64,000 bases of DNA from Acidobacterium sp. (GTDB lineage Bacteria; Acidobacteriota; Vicinamibacteria; Vicinamibacterales; UBA2999): assembly GCA_002737365.1 (NCBI GenBank), contig NSIL01000007.1:1-64000 (forward strand). Reading direction: 5' to 3'. Positions 5,206 to 12,839 of the stretch are shown one piece after another. The notes below the pieces were generated by a model, which searched no databases, had not been told where the DNA came from, and saw only the letters and a list, made by a program, of their open reading frames with translations. How positions within the stretch are numbered: the first letter of the stretch is position 1; every line of letters begins with the position of its first letter. A program made the translations under genes and the position numbers.

Positions 5206-5282
5206 GAAAGCATTAACGGTGACGACACGGTGATGATGAAGTATACCCGGAAGCCGAATGCCCCCGATGCGGAATTGGAGGG

Positions 5283-5288
5283 TAGAAT
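5283..5288 (+). promoter_or_regulatory. -10 element of the POT transporter gene
   Basis: TAGAAT ends 11 bases before the ATG at 5300, predicting a 5' leader of only a few bases. Confidence 0.5.
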
Positions 5289-5299
5289 ACGCTTCGCAG

Positions 5300-6781
<1,482 letters not shown>

Positions 6782-6782
6782 G

Positions 6783-6823
6783 GTTTGGGGCTTGGGACTT
6801 GGGACTTGGGGCTTGAGACCTGA
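6783..6823 (+). repeat. Short tandem GGGACTTG-type repeat
   Basis: The gap between the transporter and radical SAM genes consists largely of imperfect copies of GGGACTTG/GGGGCTTG. It ends with CTGAGG, which may supply the ribosome binding site for the next gene. Confidence 0.6.
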
Positions 6824-6827
6824 GGCC

Positions 6828-8102
6828 GTGCGCGTGTTACTGATCTCGACCTACGACGTGGGCCGCCAGCCGTTTGGCCTGGCGTCGCCGGCGGCGTGGT
6901 TGAAGCGGGCCGGGTGCGAGGTGACGTGCGTTGACCTGTCGCGCGAGAAGCTCGACGCCGCGGTCATCTCGAGCGCTCAGCTGGCGGCGTTCTATCTGCC
7001 GATGCACACGGCCACCCGGCTGGCCATGCCGGTGATCGGGCGCCTGCGGGCCATCAATTCGTCGCTCACCATCGCGGCGTACGGCCTCTACGCGCCGTTG
7101 AATGAGACCCTGCTGCGCGAGCACGGGGTCAGCGTGGTGTTGGGGCCGGAAGCAGAAGAAGACCTGGTGGCGTGGGCGACAGGCCACCCTGAAGGATTGC
7201 CTCGACACTCGCTGCCGAGGCTCGCATTCATCCGCCCCGACCGGGGCGGATTGCCGGCACTTGACCGTTATGCGAGCCTGCAAATGCCGGATGGCAGCCG
7301 CAAGGTCGTTGGCGCGACCGAGGCGACGCGTGGCTGCAAGCACCGGTGCCGGCATTGCCCGATTGTGCCGGTCTACGATGGACAATTCCGCGTCGTTCCC
7401 GTTGCCGTGGTGCTCGCGGACGTTCGCGCGCAAGTGGCGCAGGGCGCGACGCACATCACGTTTGGCGACCCCGACTTCTTCAATGGCCCAACTCACGCGC
7501 GCAAGCTGATCGAGGCGCTGCACGCCGAGTTCCCGACGCTGACCTACGACGCGATCATCAAAGTCGAGCACTTGCTGCAGCACCGCGAACTGTTGCCGCT
7601 GCTGGTGCGCACCGGCTGCCTGTTCGTCACGAGCGCGGTGGAGTCGGTGGACGACGAGGTGTTGGCGAAGCTCGAGAAGGGCCACACGCGTGCCGACTTC
7701 ATCGCGGCGGCCACCCTGTGCCGTGACGCTGGCCTCACGCTGATCCCGACGTTCGTGGCGTTCACGCCGTGGACGACGCTCGACGGCTATCGCGACTTGC
7801 AGGAAGTGGTCGAAGCACTCGGCCTCACCTCGCACGTCTCGCCCATCCAGTGGGGCATTCGTCTGCTGGTGACCTGGCAATCACGGTTGCTCGAACTGGA
7901 TGACATCAGGAACGTTGTTGGTCCATTCGACCAGAAGACCCTGACGTTCCCATGGCGCCACCCCGATCCGCGCGTCGATGCACTTCAGCAGCAGATGATG
8001 GCGCTGGCATCGGTGCCACGACCCCGCACCGAGGTCCCGTACCTCGACGAGCCTTGGTACTGTTGAGCGGAACCCACCGCAGAGCAGGTCGCTCTGTTAT
8101 GA
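6828..8102 (+). CDS. CUAEP-tail radical SAM selenoprotein with B12-binding domain
   Basis: A 424-residue protein if the TGA at 8064-8066 is read as selenocysteine. Residues 1-120 form a B12-binding-like domain (VRVLLISTYDVGRQPFGLAS start). The radical SAM cluster motif is C170-K-H-R-C174-R-H-C177, followed by a TIM-barrel-like region with FGDPDFFNG. The conventional reading stops at ...EPWYC. Past the TGA, the frame reads A-E-P-T-A-E-Q-V-A-L-L and stops at 8100-8102, overlapping the ATG of the next gene as ATGA. The resulting C-U-A-E-P tail matches my recollection of a family named CUAEP/CCAEP-tail radical SAM (seleno)proteins. Start GTG 6828 fits the family N-terminus (GTG 6834 is possible). 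The reaction is unknown. Confidence 0.88.
8064..8096 (+). promoter_or_regulatory. Sec UGA codon plus bacterial SECIS-like hairpin
   Basis: The TGA at 8064-8066 is followed, after 13 bases, by a perfect six-base-pair hairpin: CAGAGC (8080-8085), loop AGGTC (8086-8090), GCTCTG (8091-8096). The loop begins 20 bases past the codon and has G at its second and third positions. That agrees with the published bacterial SECIS rules (apical loop 16-37 bases downstream, G in the first two loop positions), and AGGTC is also the core of the Escherichia coli fdhF SECIS loop. The element lies inside the recoded tail, just before the next gene's start. Confidence 0.82.
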
Positions 8103-9367
8103 AATGCGTGCTGTTGCTGGCGACGACGACCGGGTACCAGACGCGCATGTTCGCCGAAGCGGCAGCGGCGCTGGGCGTGGAGATCGTCTACGCGACCGAT
8201 CGTTGTGATCATCTGGACGATCCCTGGCGCGATGGTGCCATTCCCGTTCGCTTCCACGAGGAGTGGCGGTCCGTAGATGTAATCCTGAAGGCGCTCGAGT
8301 CGCGCCCGGTCTCTGGCGTGTTGGTGGTTGGGGACCGTCCCACGGTGCTGGCCGCGCACGTCACGCGGTTGCTGGGTCTTGCGGGTCACCCGCCTGAAGC
8401 CGCAGCGGCCGCGCGCGACAAGCGGTTGTCGCGCGAGCGGCTCAGGGCCGCCGGCTTGCCGGTGCCCGAGTTCTTCGCCGTGCCGGCGGTGATCAACCCG
8501 GCGACCATCCTGTCGCGGGTTGTGTTTCCGGTAGTCGTCAAGCCGACGGTGTTGTCGGGCAGCCGCGGCGTGATTCGTGCTGACGATGCACTGAGCTTCG
8601 TGACGGCGTTCGACCGGGTGCGGCGCCTGCTGGCCTCGACTGAGGTGCGCGAGTTGCAGGATGCCGATTTAGACGTGATCCAGGTCGAGTCGTACATCCC
8701 GGGCGAAGAGTATGCGCTCGAGGGCCTACTCGAGCACGGTGAGCTTCGGACGCTGGCGATCTTCGACAAGCCGGATCCCCTCGAGGGGCCGTTCTTCGAG
8801 GAATCGATCTACGTCACGCCGTCGCGGGCCGACGCCGGCAGGCAACGTCAGATCAGGGAAGTGGTTGCGCGCGCCGCGACAGCCATCGGCCTGCAGCACG
8901 GGCCGATTCATGCGGAGTGTCGCGTCAGCGCTCGCGGCGTCTACGTCCTTGAGGTGGCGGCGCGACCGATTGGCGGCCTGTGTGCGAAGGCCTTGCGGTT
9001 CGTGAAGCCAGGCGAGGCGTCAATTGGCCTCGAGCAGTTGCTGCTGCGGCTGGCCCTGGGAGAACCGGTGGGCGAGTGGCAACGCGAGGCCGCGGCGTCG
9101 GCCGTGATGATGATCCCGATCCCACGCAGTGGTGTCTTTCGCGGCGTCACCGGCGTGGCCGAGGCGACGGCAATGGCCGGAATCGACGACGTCTTGATCA
9201 CGGCAAAACCCGACCAGCACCTGATTGCGTTACCGGAAGGCGCCAGCTACCTGGGGTTCATCTTCGCGCACGCGCTGACGCCAGAGGCGGCGGAGCGTGC
9301 CGTGCGGGACGCGCATGCCTGCCTGCGCGTCACGATTGACCCGAGGCTGGAAGTCGTGAGGCAGTAA
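8099..9367 (+). CDS. ATP-grasp domain protein, partner of the radical SAM selenoprotein
   Basis: A 422-residue ATP-grasp enzyme. After an N-terminal Rossmann-like domain (VLLLATTTGYQT) come the ATP-binding strand FPVVVKPTVLSGSRGV, the metal/ATP residues in QVESYIPGEEYALEGLL, and the HAECRVS and VLEVAARPIGG segments, with a C-terminal lid domain. Family members join a carboxylate to an amine or similar nucleophile through an acyl phosphate, so a ligase reaction on the product of the radical SAM enzyme is a reasonable guess. Its ATG overlaps the recoded stop of the upstream gene by four bases, so translation is probably coupled to readthrough. An upstream in-frame start at 7952 lies inside the upstream gene and is rejected. 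Confidence 0.88.
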   Translation: MKCVLLLATTTGYQTRMFAEAAAALGVEIVYATDRCDHLDDPWRDGAIPVRFHEEWRSVDVILKALESRPVSGVLVVGDRPTVLAAHVTRLLGLAGHPPEAAAAARDKRLSRERLRAAGLPVPEFFAVPAVINPATILSRVVFPVVVKPTVLSGSRGVIRADDALSFVTAFDRVRRLLASTEVRELQDADLDVIQVESYIPGEEYALEGLLEHGELRTLAIFDKPDPLEGPFFEESIYVTPSRADAGRQRQIREVVARAATAIGLQHGPIHAECRVSARGVYVLEVAARPIGGLCAKALRFVKPGEASIGLEQLLLRLALGEPVGEWQREAAASAVMMIPIPRSGVFRGVTGVAEATAMAGIDDVLITAKPDQHLIALPEGASYLGFIFAHALTPEAAERAVRDAHACLRVTIDPRLEVVRQ

Positions 9368-9393: not shown

Positions 9394-9723
9394 CTACTTG
9401 GACTGCACCGGCACAAAGTCAGGAGGCAGCGCCGAGCCGGCGCCGAAGAAGAAATCCTCCATGTGCGTGCGGATCACTTCCTGGCCTTCCTTCTGCCAGG
9501 GCATCACGCGGTATTCGTTGAGGATCATCTTCTGGCGATCTTCCCAAAGCTTCCAGGCCTGCGCCGAGACGTTCTCGTAGACGCGCTGGCCAATCTCACC
9601 GGGCCAGGGCGCGGCGTCGAGGCCGGGCAGGTCCTTCTGAAATTTCACGCAGAAGACCTTGCGGCCAGACTGGTTAGTGGTCTCCTGGTTGGGTGGACCG
9701 GACGGTCCTCCGCACATACTCAT
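9394..9723 (-). CDS. yggX: Fe(II)-trafficking/oxidative damage protection protein, YggX family
   Basis: A 109-residue protein whose last 90 residues match YggX: VFCVKFQKDLPGLDAAP with the single conserved Cys, PWPGEIGQRVYENVS, AWKLWEDRQKMILNEYR, and the C-terminal FFFG. YggX proteins help protect or repair iron-sulfur clusters. An 18-20 residue N-terminal extension (MSMCGGPSGPPN) is unusual for the family. Start ATG 9723 is preferred because GGAGG lies about eight bases upstream. It is divergent from a small Cys-rich gene. Confidence 0.87.
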   Translation of the reverse strand: MSMCGGPSGPPNQETTNQSGRKVFCVKFQKDLPGLDAAPWPGEIGQRVYENVSAQAWKLWEDRQKMILNEYRVMPWQKEGQEVIRTHMEDFFFGAGSALPPDFVPVQSK

Positions 9724-9768
9724 CGTTGACGCCTCCGCTGCAATCTTACCCCGGCCCTGCTTCCCGGC

Positions 9769-9774
9769 TATCAT
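9769..9774 (+). promoter_or_regulatory. -10 element of the small Cys-rich gene
   Basis: TATCAT ends seven bases before the GTG at 9782, the spacing that recurs at leaderless-type genes in this window. Confidence 0.5.
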
Positions 9775-9781
9775 CAGCGTT

Positions 9782-10003
9782 GTGGGTCCTGAGCAACGAC
9801 ACTGGAGCTGCTGGTATGGCCGGCGGACGGCCGACCTGCCTGAAGATATTGGTTCGCACACCATCGTGGACGGCGAGCTGGTCTACTGCGCCCACCCCAT
9901 GTACTGGCCCGTCGTTCGCTACGAGTTCGACCTGCGCAACTGCGATGGCTGCGACGTCTTCAAGGCGAAGCGTGCAGACCGGCCGCCAGGCGCCGATTCC
10001 TAG
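9782..10003 (+). CDS. Small Cys-rich putative metal-binding protein
   Basis: A 73-residue protein starting at GTG 9782. It holds one Cys in WSCWYG, then LVYCAHPMY and RNCDGCDVF, giving a candidate C-x(n)-C-x2-C zinc site. No family is recognised. The start is supported by TATCAT seven bases upstream; longer reading at the 5' end runs through the divergent promoter region and is unlikely. Its stop overlaps the end of the FkbM gene on the other strand by four bases. Confidence 0.65.
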   Translation: MGPEQRHWSCWYGRRTADLPEDIGSHTIVDGELVYCAHPMYWPVVRYEFDLRNCDGCDVFKAKRADRPPGADS

Positions 10004-10761
10004 TTCCGCGGCGCGAAGAAGTCGTCCTGCTGGTAGGTGTGGACGCGCCGGTAGCCCCGCGCCTCCAGGAACGCGATGATCGCGGTCCGCTTCGGCTCTT
10101 CTTCGTTGTGTTCGATGGCCATGGCGCCGAATCGATACTGGTCGAACGGAAGACCGCGCAAGGCGTCGAGCTCCGCGCCTTCAATGTCGAGGCTGAGGAA
10201 ATGAATGAAGGCAGGTGCCTTCGCTCGCGCCAGCACCTCGCCCAGTGTGGTCGTCGTCATCTCAACCGCCGGCGCTTTCGACGCTTCGCCCTTCCACTTC
10301 CCGAGAGTGTCGGCAATGCCACCGAGCCCGTCGTGGGTGTGGAACAGCACCTTCCTGCCGGCTTCGTTCGAGACCACGTCCGTGATCATCTGGCAGGTGC
10401 GTCCCGCCATGGCGGTGGGAAAGGGATCGACGCAGATCCCGGTCCAGCCGCGGTCTTCGAGCGCGCGCGTGTTCGACCCGATCTGGCCATGGCCCGAGCC
10501 GACGTCGAGGAACACGCCGTCGTGGACGTCGGGAAAGATGGCCTCGGCCACCCACTTGTCCTGACCAATCTCCGACGGGTACGGCGGCGTGCCGAGCGTC
10601 TCCTGCCAGGCAATGGCGAACGCCCGGGTGAGGGGCAATTGACAGCAGCGTCGATTCTCCTGCAGGTAGCCGGCAAACGCCTGTCCTCGCGGGCTGAAGA
10701 AGGCCGCCGCGCCGACGAGCAAGGCAAGTGCGCCGACGAGCCCCAGCTTCGCTTTGGACAT
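10000..10761 (-). CDS. FkbM family methyltransferase with N-terminal membrane segment
   Basis: A 253-residue protein. An N-terminal hydrophobic segment (LVGALALLVGAAAFF) suggests membrane anchoring. It is followed by a class I methyltransferase core of FkbM type, with the SAM-binding FLDVGSGHGQIGSNT, the acidic ICVDPFP, and the FkbM signature LSLDIEGAELDAL. Substrates of FkbM enzymes are often sugars or other small hydroxylated molecules; none is indicated here. ATG 10761 shares one base with the TGA of the molybdopterin oxidoreductase (TGATG), so the two genes are an operon. Confidence 0.85.
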   Translation of the reverse strand: MSKAKLGLVGALALLVGAAAFFSPRGQAFAGYLQENRRCCQLPLTRAFAIAWQETLGTPPYPSEIGQDKWVAEAIFPDVHDGVFLDVGSGHGQIGSNTRALEDRGWTGICVDPFPTAMAGRTCQMITDVVSNEAGRKVLFHTHDGLGGIADTLGKWKGEASKAPAVEMTTTTLGEVLARAKAPAFIHFLSLDIEGAELDALRGLPFDQYRFGAMAIEHNEEEPKRTAIIAFLEARGYRRVHTYQQDDFFAPRN

Positions 10762-12833
10762 CACTCGATGGTCGTGGGCGGTGGCCGTCGGGATCCCGTG
10801 GGTCGCGCCCCAACGTCGCGTCGTTCCACCTGCACGCGCGCGTCGTTGAAGCACGCGCCGCCGCCGAGATCCGACAACGTATCCGGCGAGAGGGCGTTCG
10901 AGGTGTAGCCGTTGGCGGAATGACGCCGCCACACGCCCTTGGGCATGGCGACCGTGCCCGGCCGCAGCAAGTGGGTGAGGTGGGCCTTGATGTGGACTTC
11001 GCCCAGCGCATTCCACATCCGCAGCGAGTCGCCCTCCTCGATGCCGCGCGCCGCCGCATCGCCAGGATTGATGTCGAGCCTCACTTCCGGCCTGGCCAGC
11101 TCACCGAGGGTCGAACTGATGGTGCGGTCGCTGGCGGGTGAGATCAGCGCCAGCGGAAATTCGGTGGTCGCTGGATCGACCTGGAAGCCATACAACCCGA
11201 GCGGCGCCTCCTGGTCGAGGTGCGACGGGAACAGGTTCACCTTATGGTCGGCCGTCTTCGGAAACACGTCGACGAATTGGACGGGCCGGCCATCGTAGGG
11301 CGGCCTGGCCGTCCAGTTCTCGCGCAAGTCATTTCCGATCTGCTCCGGCAAGTGACCGAGTACGGCGAGCATGGCTTCGAGATCGTCTGCGGGGTCGCCC
11401 TCGACCGACAACTCCAACCGGCGCGACAGTTCCAGGAAGACGTCACTGTTGGGCCGCGATTCGCCGACGGCATCAATCACCGGCTTGCCAAGTTGCAGCG
11501 TGATGGCGCCGTATCCCCGGGCAAAGTCGTAATGCTCCATGAACGTCGTCGCCGGCAGTACCACATCGGCATACATCGCCGAGTCGGTCATCACTTGGTC
11601 AAAGACTACGGTGAAGAGATCTTCGCGCTCGAAGCCGCGGATGACCCGGTGCTGGTCGGGCAGAATCGCCACGGGGTTGCAGTTGTAGACGAACAGCATG
11701 TTGACCGGCGCGCTCTCGGGTTCCGTGAGGAGGCGGCCGACCTTGTTCATGTTGATGGCGCGGGTCGGCGGCTCGGCGTCGGCCAGCCACGTGCGGTCAA
11801 TGTCCCAGCTGGCGGCGTTGCTCATTGAATAGCCGCCGCCACGGACGCCGAACTTGCCGGCGACCGCTGGTAGCGCGAGCACCGCCGCGGCGGCGCTGCC
11901 GCCATTGCGGTTGCGCTCCAGCCCCCAGCCGCACTTCACGAGTGCAGGCGAGGTCTTGGCGTAGCGTTCCGCGAGTCCCCGCAGTTGCCCGGCGTCGAGG
12001 CCGCTGACTTCGGCGGCACGCGCGAAGGTCCATGGCTCAGCCCTCTTGCGCAGGTCGGCCGCGCCCGTGGTGTGCTGATCGAGGAACGCCTGATCGGCGA
12101 GGCCTTCTTCAAACAGATGACGATGAATGGCCAGCGCCACCGGCAGGTCCGCGCCGGGACGCACGGCCAGGTGCAGGTCGGCCTGGCGTGCCACGGTGGT
12201 CGCGCGCGGATCGAGCACCACCACGTAGGCGCCGTGGTCGCGCGCTTCCTTCAGGAACGGCATCAGGTGAATGCCCGACACGCCGGGGTTCACGCCCCAG
12301 ATGATGATCATCTTGGCCGCGGGGTAATCCTCGTAGACGACCGAAGCCATCTTGCCGTAGAGGCCCATGTTGGCGGCGCCGGTCGGCGCGGCGCACACCG
12401 TGCGCAATAGCCGTGACGTGCCGAGTCGCCGGAACAGGATGGCGTCGGCATAGTCCTGCGTCATGAAGCCGTTAGACCCGCCATAGCAGAGAGGCAAGAT
12501 GCTTTCGGCGCCGTCGGTGTCGCGCGTGTGCCGCATCTTCTCGGCGATCAAGTCCAGCGCATCGTCCCAGCTCACGCGCCTGAACTGACCTTTGCCCTTG
12601 GCGCCGCGGCGCACCGCCGGATAGAGCAGGCGATCGTCCCCGTAAATGCGCTCGTGGAAGCCGCGCACCTTGGCGCAGATGTAGCCGCTAGTGATGTGGT
12701 TGTCTTTCGACCCATCGATCTTCGTGATGCGCCCCGAGCGTAACGTCACGTCCAGCGTGCAGGCATCGGGGCAATCCAGCGGACACGCGGTCTGCACGTG
12801 GGACTCAGTGGGAGCGGCACCAGGCTTCGCCAT
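10761..12833 (-). CDS. Molybdopterin-dependent oxidoreductase
   Basis: A 690-residue member of the DMSO reductase/formate dehydrogenase superfamily. The N-terminus has the Mo4Fe4S cluster ligands (CPLDCPDAC and a later Cys in ICAKVRGF). The MGD-binding region includes WDDALDLIAEKM, CYGGSNGF, IIIWGVNPGVSG, and a C-terminal molydopterin-dinucleotide domain from about residue 570. No Tat signal is seen, so it is probably cytoplasmic. The likely metal-ligand region is TVCAAPTGAA, with Cys available; no UGA interrupts it. Start ATG 12833 follows TATTCT by seven bases. The physiological substrate is not evident. moaC elsewhere in the window fits cofactor supply. Confidence 0.9.
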   Translation of the reverse strand: MAKPGAAPTESHVQTACPLDCPDACTLDVTLRSGRITKIDGSKDNHITSGYICAKVRGFHERIYGDDRLLYPAVRRGAKGKGQFRRVSWDDALDLIAEKMRHTRDTDGAESILPLCYGGSNGFMTQDYADAILFRRLGTSRLLRTVCAAPTGAANMGLYGKMASVVYEDYPAAKMIIIWGVNPGVSGIHLMPFLKEARDHGAYVVVLDPRATTVARQADLHLAVRPGADLPVALAIHRHLFEEGLADQAFLDQHTTGAADLRKRAEPWTFARAAEVSGLDAGQLRGLAERYAKTSPALVKCGWGLERNRNGGSAAAAVLALPAVAGKFGVRGGGYSMSNAASWDIDRTWLADAEPPTRAINMNKVGRLLTEPESAPVNMLFVYNCNPVAILPDQHRVIRGFEREDLFTVVFDQVMTDSAMYADVVLPATTFMEHYDFARGYGAITLQLGKPVIDAVGESRPNSDVFLELSRRLELSVEGDPADDLEAMLAVLGHLPEQIGNDLRENWTARPPYDGRPVQFVDVFPKTADHKVNLFPSHLDQEAPLGLYGFQVDPATTEFPLALISPASDRTISSTLGELARPEVRLDINPGDAAARGIEEGDSLRMWNALGEVHIKAHLTHLLRPGTVAMPKGVWRRHSANGYTSNALSPDTLSDLGGGACFNDARVQVERRDVGARPTGSRRPPPTTIE

Positions 12834-12839
12834 AGCCAA

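Follow-up and report, generated by a model that had tools for sequence, protein, structure and literature searches.

In the window, i.e., the whole stretch of 64,000 nucleotides of DNA that was analysed, the reading frame of a radical SAM protein meets a TGA codon (8064-8066) directly 3' of a cysteine codon (TGT, 8061-8063; Cys412). Past this TGA the frame continues as A-E-P-T-A-E-Q-V-A-L-L to another TGA at 8100-8102. This raises the question of whether the first TGA ends the protein or is read as selenocysteine (Sec) and, if it is Sec, what a Cys-Sec pair near the C-terminus of a radical SAM enzyme might do.

The radical SAM gene and its family

Reading the frame again with TGA as Sec (U) gave a CUAEP-tail radical SAM selenoprotein gene at 6828..8102 on the plus strand, with a GTG start, Sec at 8064, a stop at 8100-8102 and 424 residues; an alternative start of this frame is a TTG at 6792. 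The coordinates given in the earlier note were all exact. As that note had pointed out, the ATG of the following ATP-grasp gene at 8099 overlaps the end of the extended frame in an ATGA (8099-8102), and without read-through the protein would be 12 residues shorter (Sec included) and a gap of 32 bases (8067-8098) would lie between the two genes. The ATGA overlap is not common to the family, the distance between the radical SAM and ATP-grasp genes differing among loci.

The radical SAM [4Fe-4S] cluster motif CxxxCxxC (C170, C174 and C177; 7335..7358, plus strand) is invariant in a family alignment of 27 rows and is shared by three ArsL-family rows. The C-terminal tail, EPWYC-U-AEP (8049..8075, plus strand), comes after a linker of variable length. 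In the 27-row alignment, A2, the tail residues E408, P409, W410, Y411, C412, U/C413, E415 and P416 are invariant; the residues that precede them show little conservation and differ in number.

A search with the 6828-8102 protein against the CUAEP/CCAEP-tail radical SAM family, which the earlier note had named for comparison, gave 575.5 bits with the tail and 556.0 bits without it, above the curated cut-off of 500 of NCBIfam NF040546. The sole Pfam family given for the protein was PF04055 (Radical_SAM, 52.1 bits). Because the CUAEP/CCAEP-tail radical SAM (seleno)protein family is already named in NCBIfam and RefSeq, the protein is of a known kind and the window gene is an added member. The proposal of a selenoprotein in the earlier note is supported by the comparative tests. 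The family is apparently uncharacterised, and none of the papers searched uses either "CUAEP" or "NF040546". A 2026 inventory (PMC13188914) has 119 families in its Table 1 according to its text, and neither NF040546 nor a CUAEP protein is listed in that table.

NF040546 was over its cut-off in 90 of the 193 genomes searched from the window's class. A scan of genome contigs gave at least 560 relatives, and the 80 best loci among these were taken further. In the sample examined, the CUAEP members are mostly acidobacterial.

Reading of the in-frame TGA

The tail pattern E[PA]W[YF]C-X-[AS]E[PA] was looked for in the window and in 110 loci, and it was readable in 107 of these 111 sequences; no tail was obtained from L022, which the pattern missed, or from L062, L089 and L100, which are cut or masked before the tail. 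After identical 75-nt stretches had been merged (79 TGA rows to 66 and 28 Cys rows to 23), the codon at X was TGA in 66 distinct tails and TGC or TGT in 23. Conservation of the C[U/C]AEP sequence, with Cys instead of Sec in some relatives, was seen in 87 of the 89 distinct tails, the remaining two being CUAEA and CUSEP. The codon aligned with the second TGA of the window is likewise TGA in 34 of the 66 TGA forms and TAA or TAG in 26; in the other 6 the frame continues. The TAA or TAG codons in these 26 relatives indicate that TGA 8100 acts as a stop.

A tree was made of 79 members plus two ArsL-family rows. The members were the window, Thermomicrobium roseum, whose state was set to Sec from its DNA, and those 77 of the 80 loci L050-L129 whose tail could be read; L020-L049 were left out. 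With 58 TGA and 21 Cys members, the tree has 11 Sec/Cys changes, at least 5 of which are forced by strongly supported branches. The first-branching member is T. roseum, a TGA form. Its RefSeq CUAEP/CCAEP-tail protein (NC_011961.1, L130:7935-9371) ends in ...ESWFC, and the codons after WFC are TGA GCG GAG CCG, i.e., U-A-E-P. The RefSeq protein stops at the TGA and thus lacks the end of the tail for which it is named, a case in which annotation has removed a conserved tail. The loci L054, L073 and L105, whose titles name Cyanobacteria, Bifidobacterium breve and Acidimicrobiia, respectively, sit among acidobacterial rows in the tree and are perhaps misassigned MAGs.

Past the TGA lies a bacterial SECIS-like hairpin on the plus strand, an exact inverted repeat with arms at 8080-8085 (CAGAGC) and 8091-8096 (GCTCTG) and the loop AGGTC at 8086-8090, as the earlier note had described it. 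The two G's of the loop are 21 and 22 nt past the TGA. The 42 nt from 8061 to 8102 have a folding energy of -12.4 kcal/mol (z = -0.87), which is equalled or bettered by 34 of 200 shuffles. Rfam gave nothing above noise at the hairpin; its two matches (E 1.9 and 9.8) were far below gathering scores, and neither covered the hairpin. Considering that the hairpin of the window is no better than shuffles, it could not settle the matter alone, and its support is comparative.

At a fixed, ungapped spacing from the TGA, all six pairs are present in 54 of the 66 TGA tails and in none of the 23 Cys tails, some of which finish 5' of the hairpin stretch. Five or more pairs are present in 60 of the TGA tails, and 12 lack one or more. 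The stem changes in the TGA forms are compensatory (GAGC/GCTC to GCGC/GCGC, GGGC/GCCC and others), and the element is not kept in this way in the Cys forms, in agreement with the SECIS-like role suggested earlier. In alignment A1, both sides changed in four of the six pairs, and the covariation was 0.443 compared with 0.163 when shuffled, a value of 0.443 being reached in none of 500 shuffles; these figures lean upward, because the 32 rows of A1 were hand-picked from the 66 TGA tails for different variants. Among 64 unique 42-nt TGA rows, 95.6% of the cells are paired in register compared with 40-53% when slid, and the corresponding values for the Cys rows are 44.2% and 30-39%. The 64 TGA rows have 5.73 pairs per row, compared with a mean of 3.73 and a maximum of 3.98 in 500 synonymous recodings. 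In 52 of the 64 rows the Ala of the stem is encoded by GCT, which accounts for only 6.1% of the Ala codons in the gene bodies. The loop reads AGGTN in 51 of the 66 tails and AGTTN in 12. In the Cys forms L085 and L096, five pairs out of six remain and the second loop G is changed to C, and L085 lies inside a TGA clade; we read their hairpins as putative decayed SECIS elements left after a Sec-to-Cys change.

The genome of the window was searched for selA, selB, selC (tRNA-Sec) and selD, as the earlier note had advised, and all four are present. The tRNA-Sec scored 63.6 bits (cut-off 47) and was called SeC (tca) by ARAGORN; a second match to the tRNA-Sec profile, at 49.4 bits, is a tRNA-Ser according to ARAGORN. 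SelA scored 522.2 bits (cut-off 267.9), SelB 315.2 bits, or 342.8 bits with a second piece (cut-off 242.25), and SelD 343.9 bits (cut-off 125). The selD gene (G000:C23:154201-155127; L018 around 1531) has one in-frame TGA, in CAG-U-ASK, which we take to be the active-site position. SelD is thus selenoprotein-like itself, and Sec seems to be used by a second gene in this genome. The UXX-star selenoprotein (NF041114) was not found in the window's own genome. Two findings that the earlier note had named as refuting its proposal, the absence of selB and selC and the loss of CxAEP in homologues, were therefore not seen.

Among genomes with near full-length NF040546 matches reaching profile position 463 or beyond, tallied by eye, SelA was over its cut-off in 59 of the 62 with a TGA form and in 9 of the 20 with a Cys form (Fisher p = 3.0e-6); with partial matches reaching 463 included, the counts were 63 of 68 and 12 of 23, respectively (p = 5.9e-5). 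These counts treat related genomes as independent, which they are not, and leave out matches ending before the tail, namely those of the window's own genome, G035, G061, G113 and G114. SelB was searched in 25 genomes, comprising the 20 Cys-form genomes, the 3 TGA-form genomes without SelA, and G129 and G142 with partial Cys forms. It was found in all three TGA-form genomes without SelA and in 9 of the 20 Cys-form genomes, the same nine that have SelA.

Could the UGA be an ordinary stop, with the downstream codons and the hairpin arising by chance, or with the hairpin acting as a terminator or as a translational coupler to the ATP-grasp gene? The hairpin taken alone would suit this explanation, being not above shuffles and sitting just 5' of the ATP-grasp start. 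However, C-X-[AS]E[PA] stays in frame across the UGA in 66 tails, and Cys occupies X in 23. Moreover, the six-pair hairpin is missing in the Cys forms although 15 of 19 of them have an ATP-grasp neighbour, and it is retained in the TGA-form loci L095, L106 and L112, which have no such neighbour. The TGA/Cys tails, the pairing data and the neighbour counts thus contradict a stop, terminator or coupler, and we regard this explanation as very improbable. A changed genetic code, with UGA read as Trp or Cys, would also make the in-frame UGA a sense codon, but the genome has the complete Sec machinery, the next UGA (8100) acts as a stop where 26 of the 66 relatives have TAA or TAG, and a single TGA lies inside SelD at the presumed active-site position. 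On these grounds a changed code is ruled out, and we give it practically no weight.

The family match, the Sec machinery, the Sec/Cys tails, the covarying hairpin and the at least five exchanges together make it very probable, from sequence comparison, that UGA 8064-8066 (plus strand) encodes selenocysteine, Sec413, in a member of NF040546. SelB and Sec-tRNA(Sec) would read this UGA under the guidance of the hairpin at 8080-8096. Several comparative tests thus agree that a named, apparently unstudied radical SAM family uses Sec.

Neighbouring genes and predicted fold

The adjoining gene (8099..9367, plus strand) is an ATP-grasp, L-amino-acid-ligase-like gene (PF13535, 106.2 bits; PF18603 LAL_C2, 56 bits). 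An ATP-grasp homologue on the same strand was found in 62 of 81 loci, at any distance inside the fetched DNA and with genes cut by contig ends included; 59 of these loci have it downstream, and the other 3, from Methylomirabilota/NC10, have it upstream. Within 4.5 kb, an ATP-grasp neighbour is present in 56 and missing in 13 of the 69 loci with room downstream, a number that excludes 12 of the 81 loci with less than 1.3 kb downstream or an unreadable tail. T. roseum has no ATP-grasp gene beside its CUAEP gene. In the Methylomirabilota locus L087, where the ATP-grasp gene is upstream, a small ORF lies between the two genes (7320-7916) and looks, by eye on its sequence, like an A-type Fe-S carrier.

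Upstream of the radical SAM gene is a POT/PTR2-type transporter gene (5258..6781, plus strand; PF00854, 214.6 bits). Transporter homologues are near the radical SAM gene in some loci only and in either orientation, and the transporter is possibly linked to it. Two genes on the minus strand come after the ATP-grasp gene in the window. One, at 9394-9864, encodes a bacterial Fe(2+) trafficking protein (PF04362, 103.5 bits), and a cluster of ORFs of PF04362-like sequence occurs in 45 of the 81 loci in mixed orientation. The other, at 10761-12839, encodes a molybdopterin oxidoreductase (PF00384, 157 bits); an ORF cluster matched to it on length and place alone occurs in 18 of the 81 loci.

An AlphaFold2 model made with the 27-row alignment had a mean pLDDT of 91.7 and a pTM of 0.90, with values of 63-81 per ten-residue block in the linker and tail. 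The nearest solved structures were AprD4 (Z 29.3), MgmA (28.1), OxsB (27.8) and TsrM (26.9), and the same four lead in Foldseek. All four are two-domain radical SAM enzymes with a cobalamin-type fold. By sequence, AprD4 (6fd2) alone was matched in the PDB, with an E of 0.001. The model suggests that the window protein has a two-domain cobalamin-type fold followed by a variable linker and a near-invariant tail. Pfam gave no B12-binding domain for the window protein. Since the dehydratase AprD4 and the methylthiotransferase MiaB both have this fold, the reaction is not deducible from it.

Possible chemistry and comparison with known systems

The second-best family for the window protein was that of ArsL (NF040542; 260.5 bits), which, with about 32% sequence identity, is the nearest characterised relative found. 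The window protein is not an ArsL itself, an identity that we rejected on a score below the cut-off of 450, the lack of an RCCLKC tail and the lack of an arsM neighbour. Among the 90 columns invariant in the 27 CUAEP rows, 47 have the same residue in three ArsL-family rows as well. The tail pair is among these 47, its match falling in a gapped stretch of the alignment. ArsL-family proteins with RCCLKC tails were found for Alicyclobacillus and Priestia plasmids, the Alicyclobacillus one scoring 705 bits for NF040542. The Alicyclobacillus arsL cluster has an ATP-grasp gene together with arsM and arsN1, and the Priestia cluster has an ATP-grasp gene together with an ArsR regulator and arsN1. In 16 kb around Pseudomonas amygdali arsL no annotated ATP-grasp gene was found. 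The ATP-grasp proteins of the ArsL clusters have 24-25% identity with that of the window, and the two groups could be separate recruitments. Near the CUAEP loci, a search for ArsM and ArsN1 among ORFs of at least 100 aa, a size range above that of ArsR, found no homologue except weak ArsM-like matches in 2 of 81 loci, and the window, over its first 17.5 kb, has no ORF like the Alicyclobacillus ArsM. None of the papers searched joins arsinothricin with ATP-grasp.

ArsL has been expressed in E. coli BL21 (PMC8552651). ArsL alone suffices for the formation of hydroxyarsinothricin from As(III), and it is predicted to transfer the 3-amino-3-carboxypropyl group of SAM to As(III). Considering that the nearest characterised relative found has a vicinal Cys pair and this predicted transfer, we propose a mechanism in which the tail of the window protein would move as an arm with Cys and Sec side by side. 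This pair may hold a soft element, either a metalloid resembling arsenic or some other thiophilic atom. The held element would receive the 3-amino-3-carboxypropyl group of SAM in an ArsL-like manner, and the adjoining ATP-grasp ligase could couple the amino acid so formed to a small molecule or to a second amino acid. As a whole, the mechanism is offered tentatively; arsenic as the substrate is something that we only infer.

Thioredoxin reductase has a C-terminal Gly-Cys-Sec-Gly arm that serves as a redox device. The Cys-Sec arm of the window protein might likewise be a redox device, a selenylsulfide/dithiol serving to reduce a substrate or to protect the cluster, with Sec present but a radical chemistry unrelated to that of ArsL. 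The vicinal Cys-Sec or Cys-Cys pair, the variable linker and the C-terminal place would suit a swinging redox arm equally, and the scarcity of ArsM and ArsN1 homologues nearby also fits. However, no reductase domain was detected in the window protein, and ArsL, the nearest characterised relative found, has a terminal vicinal Cys pair too; we treat a redox arm as possible, with reserve. Alternatively, the protein could act on a carbon centre as a methyltransferase or mutase of the cobalamin-type radical SAM enzymes, whose tail clamps the substrate and whose product is ligated by the ATP-grasp enzyme. The cobalamin-type fold of the top structural matches, AprD4, MgmA, OxsB and TsrM, speaks for such an enzyme, but Pfam gave only PF04055 and no B12-binding domain, the dehydratase AprD4 and the methylthiotransferase MiaB have the same fold, and the closest characterised relative by sequence is ArsL. 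We consider this explanation unlikely.

The proposal of an element held by Cys-Sec can be extended to the family. The CUAEP enzymes would then be a widespread, often selenium-dependent version of ArsL, in which Cys-Sec captures As or another soft element such as Se, Te or Sb, the enzyme alkylates this element with the 3-amino-3-carboxypropyl group from SAM, and the ATP-grasp enzyme builds an as yet unknown organo-element natural product of peptide type. This extension is doubtful and leans towards the unlikely. If true, it would make many acidobacteria producers of organo-element amino acids of an unknown class. The recurrent ATP-grasp ligase and the link to ArsL turn "function unknown" into a testable question of whether a metalloid binds to the Cys-Sec arm and receives the 3-amino-3-carboxypropyl group.

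Compared with known systems, the window protein is most clearly a member of NF040546 (rSAM_CUAEP), with a score over the cut-off, the C-U-AEP tail and TGA or Cys at one site. It differs, together with its nearest relative at locus L050, in being without about 40 linker residues before the tail, and the family name carries no function. TIGR04167 (GxxU) and TrsS (NF045646) are also radical SAM proteins and predicted selenoproteins in the 2026 inventory (PMC13188914), but they are different families. The best structural match, the radical SAM diol dehydratase AprD4 (6fd2), aligns with a Z of 29.3 over 383 residues and an rmsd of 3.1, but with 20% identity and only up to model residue 399, short of the tail. 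The ArsL family has 32.5-32.8% identity over 412 columns (residues 1-391), the same CxxxCxxC motif and likewise a vicinal Cys pair at the C-terminus (RCCLKC), and an ATP-grasp gene is present in two of the three fetched clusters, both from Bacillota. In contrast to the WYCUAEP of the window protein, however, the tail of ArsL is RCCLKC, with Cys where the window protein would have Sec.
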